Below, piece after piece: positions 2,896 to 18,450 of a stretch of DNA of 20,240 nucleotides; position 1 is the first letter of the stretch; the number at the start of each line of letters is the position of its first letter. The notes below the pieces were generated by a model. The model made no database searches. It was not told the DNA's origin and was given only the letters and a program-made list of their open reading frames with translations. A program made the translations under genes and the position numbers. Source of the stretch: Bacteroidota bacterium (GTDB lineage: Bacteria; Bacteroidota; Bacteroidia; Sphingobacteriales; Sphingobacteriaceae); NCBI GenBank assembly GCA_013288465.1, contig JABDBT010000039.1:1-20240 (forward strand), written 5' to 3'.

Positions 2896-3675
2896 ATGAA
2901 AAAACTAATTGTATTTGATCTCGACGGCACACTTGCCGAAAGTAAAGCGGCTATTGATAAACAAATGGTAACCGTTTTAGACGCGTTGTTAAACGTGGCC
3001 AAAGTAGCCATTATATCCGGCGGCGACTGGCCCCAGTTTGAAAAACAGGTGTTAGCCAAATTGGGGCATATTAAACAGCTCAAAAACCTATACATACTGC
3101 CAACCTGCGGCACAAAGTTTTACCGGTATAAAAAATCGGGGTGGGTAAAGCTGTATTCGGAAGATTTTACGCCCGATGAAAAAACAAAGATCATTGATTC
3201 GTTAAACGAAGCGGTAGAAGAGTCGCATATCAAACCCGCAAAAACCTGGGGCGAACAAATTGAGGACAGGGGCAGCCAGATCACCTTCTCGGCATTGGGC
3301 CAAAAAGCGCCGCTGGATGCCAAAAAAACTTTCGACCCTAAATTCATCAAACGCAAAAAAATACAAAAAGCGCTTAGCTTCACAATACCTAACTTCGCCG
3401 TTAATTTAGGCGGAACAACATCGGTTGATGTTACCAAACCCGGTATTGATAAAGCTTACGGCATAAAAAAGTTAAAAGAAATATTAGGGATCAAAAAAAG
3501 CGAAATGCTGTTTATCGGCGATGCTATTTTCCCCGGCGGAAACGATTACCCCGCCAAAGAAGCAGGCGTAGCTTCCGTATGCATCAAAGACCCCGACGAA
3601 ACAAAACGCGTTATAGAAGGTATTATAGCTTGTTTGGATAAACAAGGGAAATATACAAAGGGGCTGGGTGTCTGA
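2896..3675 (+). CDS. HAD-IIB family protein resembling eukaryotic-type phosphomannomutase
   Basis: The 259-residue protein begins MKKLIVFDLDGT, with HAD nucleophile D8 and acid/base D10. Later segments line up by eye with eukaryotic phosphomannomutases: ISGGDWPQFEKQ (40-51), EDRGSQITFSALGQ (123-136), GGTTSVDVTKPGIDK (172-186) and GDAIFPGGNDYP (208-219), followed by PDETKRV. The order and spacing fit the PMM cap and core. The role would be interconversion of mannose 1-phosphate and mannose 6-phosphate, which suits the position between manA and a GH130 gene. A plain sugar-phosphate phosphatase of the same HAD-IIB class cannot be excluded. An in-frame ATG at 2842 is rejected as start because it lies inside repeat B and would add 18 residues encoded by the repeat. 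The TGA stop lies in the left arm of a palindromic repeat. Confidence 0.82.
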   Translation: MKKLIVFDLDGTLAESKAAIDKQMVTVLDALLNVAKVAIISGGDWPQFEKQVLAKLGHIKQLKNLYILPTCGTKFYRYKKSGWVKLYSEDFTPDEKTKIIDSLNEAVEESHIKPAKTWGEQIEDRGSQITFSALGQKAPLDAKKTFDPKFIKRKKIQKALSFTIPNFAVNLGGTTSVDVTKPGIDKAYGIKKLKEILGIKKSEMLFIGDAIFPGGNDYPAKEAGVASVCIKDPDETKRVIEGIIACLDKQGKYTKGLGV

Positions 3676-3782
3676 ACCATGATTCATAGGATTGAAAGAT
3701 TGTCATGATGCATATCAATTAGAAATCCTTTAATCCTAAAATCAGCCGAATCATGGTTCAGACAAAAATCATGGTTCAGACA
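3671..3782. repeat. Palindromic repeat family C, copy 1
   Basis: TCTGAACCATGATTC at 3671-3685 is a perfect 15-base inverted partner of 3748-3762. Internal AGGATT/AATCCT pairs lie between the arms. The right arm is partly duplicated at 3766-3782 (AAATCATGGTTCAGACA). The left arm overlaps the last codons of the preceding gene, so TGA at 3673-3675 is part of the repeat. A second copy lies at 8100-8193. Confidence 0.85.
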
Positions 3783-4115
3783 ACCCGTCAGCAGAACAGC
3801 TTCGGCCAAAATCTGGCAAAACAATGCAGGGCAGTGCGGCAGCAGGGCATAGGAAATATTTGCAGAAGGGTCGGCCACGAGCAAGTGCGCAGGCCACAAG
3901 CGTACAAGGCGGGGCAACTGTTTCCAGCCCAGGTTTTGTCGGATTTGCAGCGCAAAGGCCCGTGCGGCAAAGAAGCCTTTCTACTGACTTGATCTTTTGG
4001 TTACTTTTGTATCAAGACAAAAGTAACAGCCTCCGCGGCAATTGAGCGGACGAATGCTCTCATTTACAACGAAATATCTTTCGAAAGACTATCTGATACA
4101 GAAGTTGCCACGCCA
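3782..4115 (+). repeat. Long (about 330 bp) repeat family D, copy 1
   Basis: This block is highly similar along its whole length to 5251-5583, in the same orientation, and the two flank the GH130 gene. Shared landmarks include GGCAAAACAATG, AGAAGGGTCGGCCACGAGCA, CAGCCCAGGTTTTGTCGGAT and CCTCCGCGGCAATTGAGCGG. It holds a perfect 11-bp hairpin GTTACTTTTGT-ATCAAG-ACAAAAGTAAC at 4000-4027. Short reading frames on both strands cross it, but they are broken differently in the two copies, so I regard it as non-coding. From 4116 to the GH130 start nothing is recognisable. Confidence 0.85.
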
Positions 4116-8096: not shown

Positions 8097-8099
8097 TTA

Positions 8100-8193
8100 T
8101 CTGAACCATGATTTGTAGGATTTATAGATTTTCATGATTGACTTTCATTAATTTATCAAGCTAATCCTTAAATCCTACGAATCAAGGTTCAGA
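8100..8193. repeat. Palindromic repeat family C, copy 2
   Basis: The left arm at 8100-8124 and right arm at 8169-8193 are 25-base inverted partners with two mismatches. The arms begin TCTGAACCATGATT as in copy 1 at 3671. The element sits between convergent genes, 3 bases after the kinase stop codon and 6 before the stop codon of the DUF386 gene. It may serve as a bidirectional transcription stop, although it lacks a clean T-run. Confidence 0.85.
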
Positions 8194-8199
8194 CAAGCC

Positions 8200-13869: not shown

Positions 13870-13951
13870 TGCAATAAGCTCATTGCGAGGCAGGGAGCGG
13901 GGCGGATGGCGGGAAATGCCATTAACCTGAAAAAATATATCGCCGTTAAAA

Positions 13952-14032
13952 CCCTCTTTTCGCGGTAGCGAAGAGAGGGTCGCCCAGCGTAGCGTTGGCG
14001 GGGTGAGTAATCGCCGACAAGCGATTAACGAA
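13952..14032 (+). repeat. Intergenic repeat family A, copy 3
   Basis: CCCTCTTTTCGCGGTAGCGAAGAGAGGG forms the leading hairpin here, with a different loop from copies 1 and 2, followed by the shared GTCGCCCAGCGTAGCGTTGG and GGGTGAGTAATCGCCG. It lies between the GH3 and GH8 genes. Nothing else is recognisable in that gap. Confidence 0.75.
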
Positions 14033-17462: not shown

Positions 17463-18284
17463 CTACACCGCCACTTCCCCCTTAATATGCGGCCACGGGT
17501 CGTAATTCTCTAATATAAAATCCTCAAATTTAAACTGAAAAATATCCTTTACATCCGGGTTTATTTTCATGGTAGGCAGGTGGCGCGGTTCGCGGCTTAG
17601 TTGCAGCTTGGTTTGCTCCAGGTGGTTATTGTACAGGTGCGCGTCGCCAAGGGTATGTACAAAATCGCCATAATCTAAATCACAAACCTGTGCTATCATC
17701 ATGGTTAATAAAGCATACGAAGCAATATTAAAAGGCACACCCAAAAATATATCAGCGCTGCGCTGGTATAGTTGGCAAGATAATTTGCCCTTTGTTTCCC
17801 CCTTTAGGGGGTTAGGGGGCGCCACATAAAACTGGAACATATTATGGCACGGTGGTAGCGCCATTTTATTTACATCGGCCACGTTCCATGCCGAAACAAT
17901 GATACGGCGCGAGTCGGGGTTGGTTTTTATTTGGTGAATGATCTGGCTTATCTGGTCAATATGGCCGCCGTCAGGCGTTGGCCATGATCGCCATTGATAC
18001 CCATACACCGGTCCCAGGTTACCGTCGGCATCAGCCCATTCGTCCCATATACGCACACCGTTCTCTTTCAGGTAACGGATATTGGTATCGCCGGTTAAAA
18101 ACCATATCAGCTCATGTATAATTGATTTTAGGTGCAGCTTTTTGGTGGTAACCATCGGGAAACCATCCTGCAGGTTAAAACGCATTTGGTAACCAAATAC
18201 ACTGATGGTGCCGGTGCCGGTACGGTCATGTTTTTGCGTGCCGGTTTCCATCACATGGCGCATTAGGTCGAGATATTGTTTCAT
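17463..18284 (-). CDS. thyA: Thymidylate synthase with a short in-frame insertion
   Basis: ThyA makes dTMP from dUMP with methylene-tetrahydrofolate. The 273-residue protein matches E. coli-type ThyA along its length: [19 protein letters not shown] near the N-terminus, [19 protein letters not shown] (81-99), RRIIVSAWN (126-134), catalytic C146 in [32 protein letters not shown] (171-190), and GDAHLYNNH (213-221). Residues 156-165 ([10 protein letters not shown]) replace a single residue between FQFYVA and GKLSCQ in the usual family sequence, adding nine residues; this matches 273 against the usual 264. The open frame extends upstream to 18503, but those residues are encoded by TTGTAA-type repeats, so [11 protein letters not shown] at 18284 is the start. 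A dihydrofolate reductase gene, a common partner, is not adjacent. Confidence 0.95.
17790..17819 (-). repeat. Palindromic G/C repeat inserted in frame in thyA
   Basis: The 30 bases encode [10 protein letters not shown] and centre on CCCCC-TTTA-GGGGG (17798-17811), followed by TTAGGGGG (17812-17819). This kind of C/G-run sequence looks like an intergenic palindromic repeat, not like thyA. The surrounding residues join smoothly if it is removed. Confidence 0.72.
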
Positions 18285-18366
18285 GTTGTTAAGTTGTAGT
18301 TGTTGTAAGGGTTGTAAAGGTTTTAGTTGTTGTAAGAGTTGTAAATGTTGTAGAGGTTGTAAATAT
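18285..18366. repeat. TTGTAA-type degenerate tandem repeats in the thyA leader
   Basis: About nine imperfect units of the type GTTGTAA(A/G)G follow directly upstream of the thyA start codon. GTTGTAGTTGTTGTAAGGG at 18293-18311 is complementary, with one mismatch, to 18461-18479 in the second block. The unit lengths vary and no spacers exist, so this is not a CRISPR array. Confidence 0.8.
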
Positions 18367-18450
18367 TGGAAAATATCGGAGATTTTGAGGCTTAAAAAGT
18401 GCGCTAAACCTTTGCAACAGTTATAACCTATAAAACTTTTAATAAAATTA

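Follow-up and report, generated by a model that had tools for sequence, protein, structure and literature searches.

The thymidylate synthase gene (thyA) in a 20,240-nucleotide (nt) stretch of DNA, here called the window, contains in its reading frame an exact arm of an intergenic palindromic repeat. Comparison with related genes indicates that a permissive hairpin loop of ThyA has probably captured such arms in frame repeatedly, with the arm apparently overwriting loop DNA that was already there.

ThyA of the window and its loop

The loop and the arm were located in the window as follows.

17463..18284, minus strand: thyA, thymidylate synthase, intact, 273 aa (PF00303, E 8.5e-130)
17784..17822, minus strand: long-form loop of ThyA, 13 residues (155-167); short forms have ADGK or similar
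17796..17819, minus strand: repeat arm, A type, exact, CCCCCTAACCCCCTAAAGGGGGAA, encoding PPNPLKGE (residues 156-163)
17798..17811, strand not assigned: palindromic core of the arm, CCCCCTTTAGGGGG

On the plus strand, 17798-17811 reads CCCCCTTTAGGGGG and is followed by TTAGGGGG. Bases 17790-17819 encode residues 156-165, which are flanked by FQFYVA and GKLSCQ. A sequence-only reading of this DNA had counted ten residues here in place of the usual one. Three PDB alignments (one Brucella and two E. coli sequences) have a single residue at the site, so the net gain in the 273-aa protein is indeed nine. The long loop was absent from the solved ThyA sequences aligned, three in each of two comparisons.

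The protein is full length, matches PF00303 and retains the catalytic Cys loop, with C146 invariant in 65 sequences. A structure predicted from 65 aligned sequences had a mean pLDDT of 88, with 94 for block 151-160 and 95 for block 161-170, and Foldseek matched it to E. coli ThyA (1nce) with a TM score of 0.90. Mapped on this model, residues 156-165 form a predicted hairpin turn in a surface loop, between strands 147-155 and 167-178. The sequence-only reading had placed the extra residues in the neighborhood of the active site, just after the catalytic Cys loop; the turn does not include the catalytic C146 itself.

A search of the window for CCCCCTTTAGGGGG with at most two mismatches, for which shuffled sequences averaged 0.22 matches, gave two matches at one place; they are the same site, as the core reads almost identically on both strands. 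No second copy of the arm unit was found inside the 20,240 nt. The window also holds other repeats. A 9-base unit (GTTGTAAAG) forms a tandem array at 18285-18372, directly upstream of the thyA start, and lengthens the open frame. Locus L240 (genome G042) has a frame with similar residues (QLQPLQL) upstream of thyA; its thyA frame is broken at two places, one of them within the repeat-bearing loop, perhaps through sequencing errors. A second palindromic repeat family of about 80 bases lies between larger open reading frames (ORFs) at 1230-1309, 2630-2709 and 13943-14022 and, inverted, at 2557-2621. A 97-base direct repeat (99% identical) occupies 1425-1521 and 2791-2887, and related inverted repeats around TCTGAACCATGATT were seen at 3669-3785 and 8097-8199.

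The interspersed repeat

Arm copies were counted in 16 relatives and in 149 genomes from the genus to which G002 belongs; G002 is the source of L002, a Mucilaginibacter record, and the best named matches of this genus are Mucilaginibacter. With at most one mismatch, the 23-base unit CCCCCTAACCCCCTRAAGGGGGA was found in 10 of the 16 relatives. The sequence-only reading had likened the loop DNA to a mobile palindromic repeat, and this was borne out: the loop DNA holds an arm of an abundant, interspersed, intergenic inverted repeat present at the same threshold in 124 of the 149 genus genomes, with up to 59 copies each. A reversed-pattern control gave zero matches in all 149. Exact arms of a second subtype, B (CCCCCYRGCCCCCTRAAGGGGGAGC), were present in 98 of the 149 genomes, again with zero control matches.

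The arm measures about 24-27 bases, and the element 76-176 bases end to end where both arms are present. We sampled 60 arm loci (30 + 30), taking the copies listed first rather than a random set. Fifty-one of the 60 arms lie in no ORF of at least 100 aa. The sample comprised 56 distinct arms, some of them in genes; in 25 of these an inverted partner follows no more than 220 bases downstream. G stands directly before the arm in 46 of the 56 and A directly after it in 53; this A is followed by C or T and then by mixed bases. The three preceding bases vary (AAG in 19, TAG in 14, GAG in 6, and others), and a stop trinucleotide, counted irrespective of frame, directly precedes 15 of the 56 arms, compared with 0.05 per position. 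With the limit raised to three mismatches, 9 of the 40 genomes examined from outside the genus had arm matches, and in several the core read CCCCCGAAGGGGG. The repeat may therefore be one member of a larger group. No known RNA family matched at the arm at gathering score in five sources; the one RNA-family match, in L363, sits away from the arm.

Y1/RAYT transposases were considered as a possible mover of the arm, and no clear association was seen. PF01797, a model that we take to cover IS200 as well as RAYT, matched in 129 of the 149 genus genomes. Several arm-free genomes have a match, and seven genomes with 11-23 arm copies (G029, G065, G067, G084, G092, G100 and G150) have none. Arm-like sequence was absent from the four Y1 loci examined, and a crude motif scan found no Y1 transposase ORF in the 60 arm loci. 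Repetitive extragenic palindrome (REP) insertions in such transposase genes have been recorded in Bacteroidetes (PMC6006769), which keeps a mover of this kind conceivable.

Loop DNA in related thyA genes

ThyA was matched with an E-value of 1e-60 or below in 144 of the 149 genus genomes. The 144 thyA genes parsed, with the window gene counted in and G042 excluded, have loops of 13 residues (n = 100), 15 residues (n = 2) or 4 residues (n = 42). In the comparison with related ThyA proteins that the sequence-only reading had proposed, most genus genes share the 13-residue loop length of the window, and the ten loci named Pedobacter among the matches have short loops. In the 100 loops of 13 residues, P is retained in 100, K in 95, G in 97 and E in 99.

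Outside the genus, the loop region matched in 389 of 399 family genomes, in two E-value classes. Forty genomes were picked from the better class for that reason, and all 40 have a 13-residue loop, for example APAQPEKGILKPQ and APPNPEKGQTKAQ. Thirty-three of them have no arm copy at one mismatch or fewer, and P, K and G stand at three arm-peptide positions in all 33 of these loops; 27 of the 40 have no arm match even at three mismatches. At class level, 26 of 395 genomes matched the loop region at E 1e-20 or better, 15-residue loops among them. The 13-residue loop is long established, a hairpin turn that exists in long and short forms in the ThyA of this family. Since 27 outside-genus genomes have the long loop and no arm match within three mismatches, the repeat seems to have rewritten the DNA of the loop rather than created it. 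A recent insertion into a short ADGK loop was therefore rejected as the general account. The proposal of an in-frame insertion into thyA is supported for the arm, which is in frame, but not for the origin of the nine residues. Of the two-part refutation that the sequence-only reading had set, one half applies: the extension is old, yet the unit has many other copies in related genomes. The window gene groups with short-loop genes (98% support, in a 14-row set that includes five long loops), and the protein tree agrees. For this gene, among its short-loop relatives, a gain of the long loop together with the arm is possible.

The loop DNA of the window matches the arm exactly over 24 bases (17796-17819). 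Mismatches to the arm among the 100 13-residue loops numbered 0 in 12 loops, 1 in seven and 2 in four, with a second peak at 9-10. Thus, 23 of the 100 (window included) lie within two bases of the arm and 77 beyond. PPNPLKGE is encoded by 23 loops, and 12 have the exact arm in DNA, including those of Mucilaginibacter flavidus (L004) and M. phyllosphaerae (L024). Codon use in the remainder of thyA predicts 2.2e-5 exact arms per loop. The remainder of the gene differs by 10.6-22.4% among the 12 exact-arm thyA genes, with a median of 45% at third positions. An old loop without any repeat was excluded by the repeat copies in related genomes and by these exact matches beyond codon expectation.

The edges of the arm were also compared. 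The first base after it, which lies outside the arm definition, is C or T in 18 of 23 arm genes vs 3 of 67 non-arm genes (P 1e-11), and in 54 of the 56 sampled arms. AG precedes the arm in 18 of 23 arm genes vs 38 of 67 non-arm genes, a difference that was not significant (P 0.08). The two 15-residue loops (L134 and L154) agree with the B subtype at all 24 bases, at the same loop site. Two arm subtypes in the same loop require at least two captures on sequence alone. In another Bacteroidia lineage, locus L308 has a thyA loop with its own G-rich palindrome (PPSNSPQGGEG), a candidate second palindrome family in this loop; this version has only two matches in its genome (G451), beside 17 looser arm relatives.

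We mapped arm state on a loop-free thyA tree, a quick single-gene search in which 44 of 141 inner branches have support below 80. Arm state required 21 changes for 23 arm genes (shuffles, mean 21.6; 84 of 200 at or below 21), and short vs long loop required 10 changes compared with 36.5 in shuffles. Arm state is scattered on the tree like random labels, whereas loop length is not. Arm state and repeat copy number were weakly related (P 0.06 against decayed long loops and P 0.002 against short loops).

Pairs of genes diverging by 6-10% were compared across the 24 loop bases. Pairs of an arm gene with a non-arm gene differ at 10.5 of these bases (10 pairs), of which at least four follow from the definition, a variable A/G base aside; pairs of two non-arm genes differ at 5.3 (10 pairs). 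The larger difference points to replacement rather than slow decay. The pairs L172/L198 and L161/L197 are each about 8.5% different outside the loop and differ at 8 and 12 of the 24 bases inside it. Arm genes differ from each other at only 1.7 of 24 bases, although this value and the conservation of the arm are partly circular, following from the choice of genes with at most two mismatches. The closest pair, L124/L148, differs at 23 of 780 bases outside the loop, and six of these differences are crowded into the 21 bases that follow it. At five of the six, L124 has the state of the outgroup L141, which identifies L148 as the changed gene. The derived tract of about 60 bases in this non-arm gene is a recombination that removed an arm.

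In the genomes compared, no capture event with a known donor copy was found. The arm-like loops of L208 (G112) and L280 (G313) have two mismatches each, and neither genome has a copy within one mismatch; in G307 the sole arm match is thyA itself.

Several other histories could yield such a pattern. A single ancestral arm insertion might have made the long loop, leaving the present exact arms as chance survivors among decayed copies. Consistent with this, 32 of the 33 outside-genus loops without an arm copy (at most one mismatch) resemble the arm peptide in at least four of eight residues in register, and looser repeat relatives occur in the 9 of 40 outside-genus genomes mentioned above (at most three mismatches), although some of these are the thyA loop itself. 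We nevertheless consider a single insertion unlikely, because the mismatch counts have two peaks (0-2 and 9-10) instead of spreading around one mean, exact arms occur in genes with 45% third-position divergence, the site is common to two arm subtypes, and close pairs differ over much of the loop. Rather improbable as well is that arm loops spread among strains as thyA segments through ordinary homologous recombination. The difference between L124 and L148 in one short tract including the loop speaks for such spread. So does the likeness of arm-gene flanks at 120 bases, which exceeds that of random labels (P 0.02) and makes some thyA-to-thyA transfer likely. The flanks are no more alike than random labels at 30, 60 and 300 bases (P 0.42, 0.59 and 0.20), however, and segment spread leaves unexplained how the arm entered thyA, why there are two subtypes and why a second gene is affected.

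The loop DNA could also have arisen in place, by peptide selection or quasi-palindrome correction of a GC-rich turn, with its likeness to the repeat a coincidence. The P, K and G of the old motif were already at matching places in 33 of 33 loops, and the core is a near-perfect palindrome. We hold this origin to be very improbable, since exact matches are far above codon expectation, the base after the arm also tracks the repeat, and the upstream CCCCCTAA is not explained by a palindrome.

Under repeated capture, arm copies would overwrite the coding DNA of the loop again and again within the genus; such replacement is suggested by the scatter on the tree, by the arm edges and by the constant loop length. 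The route may be ectopic gene conversion or template switching, guided by residual matching between loop and arm, and guidance by a partial match would preserve loop length and frame. Transposition followed by trimming would be an alternative route, with overwriting the likelier of the two. Read by eye, the forward arm has only one stop-free frame, which encodes PPNPLKGE; this peptide resembles the old motif, which would let the enzyme tolerate the arm. After capture, the loop DNA would decay under protein-level constraint, with P, N/D, K, G and E mostly kept, and loops would also be swapped between strains by homologous recombination. Most likely, the arm has no catalytic role and is a tolerated passenger in a permissive loop.

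A second gene and comparison with known repeats

Three sampled arms (L086, L338 and L339) lie in frame in TIGR02757/DUF2400, a protein unrelated to ThyA, the family being confirmed for L086 and L339, and their reading frame is the same as in thyA. An arm-bearing TIGR02757 query was searched against the genus. Its 30 best matches, a biased set, gave 28 parsed loops, 21 of them with an arm; 40 other matches, taken at intervals from lower ranks, gave 30 parsed loops, eight of them with an arm. Twelve of the 70 loops were not parsed. Several loops (L338, L339, L363, L380 and others) hold both arms and the spacer, and arm-free loops of 24-25 residues coexist with them (L399 and L417). Under a loose pattern, another segment, similar to VILSDSEG and presumably also a repeat, was seen in 8 of 30 loops (L383, L385, L389, L402, L403, L411, L414 and L418). 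Repeats of several families may therefore be able to land in the TIGR02757 loop.

Protein-coding palindromes are reportedly present in Wolbachia. In-frame palindromic elements in conserved genes have been described above all from Rickettsia, where the RPE, about 100-150 bp long and palindromic, with inverted repeats at its ends, occurs between genes and in frame in conserved protein genes (PMC2229807 and PMC10969869). The analogy to RPE that the sequence-only reading drew is a good one: the repeat described here is interspersed, has inverted ends, measures 76-176 bases end to end and occurs both between genes and in frame, with TIGR02757 joining thyA. It differs in its Bacteroidota host, in that thyA has a single arm replacing existing loop DNA at fixed length, and in that the same thyA site has seemingly been struck again and again. 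Because of the host, we do not file it as RPE, to which it is likened by description and not by sequence.

REPs are portrayed as short palindromes in inverted pairs at gene ends and also within genes; their TAG ends provide stop codons, and Bacteroidetes have CGTC repeats (PMC3733652). For one subclass, which abounds in Bacteroidetes and Cyanobacteria, REP insertions within tnpAREP transposase genes are described as predominant (PMC6006769). The repeat shares short palindromes in inverted pairs and the stop trinucleotide before 15 of 56 arms. It differs from REPs in that no fixed GTAG/CGTC tag was found beside the 56 arms, no clear dependence on Y1-type transposases was seen, and the genes struck are thyA and TIGR02757, not a transposase gene; lacking the fixed tag, it is not filed as REP. 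Miniature inverted-repeat elements (MITEs; Neisseria NEMIS and others) are small and non-autonomous, many with an open frame fused to genes (PMC2229807). The comparison with them covers small size and in-frame fusion. We found no report of such repeats in thyA or TIGR02757 in the open-access literature, a scope that leaves aside most subscription papers.

A broader history is conceivable, and we put it forward tentatively: the long ThyA loop could itself be a fossil arm of a repeat superfamily, fixed family-wide and later, in the Mucilaginibacter lineage, templated anew by extant arm copies; TIGR02757, where whole elements are present, would then show a more recent stage of this process. If so, intergenic palindromes and the surface loop of an essential enzyme would evolve together. 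The enzyme concerned is essential and structurally well known, its relatives include arm-bearing, arm-free and short-loop alleles, and a second gene holds complete elements. Such material allows direct tests of the way in which a small palindrome comes to lie in frame within a gene and of its subsequent retention as protein.
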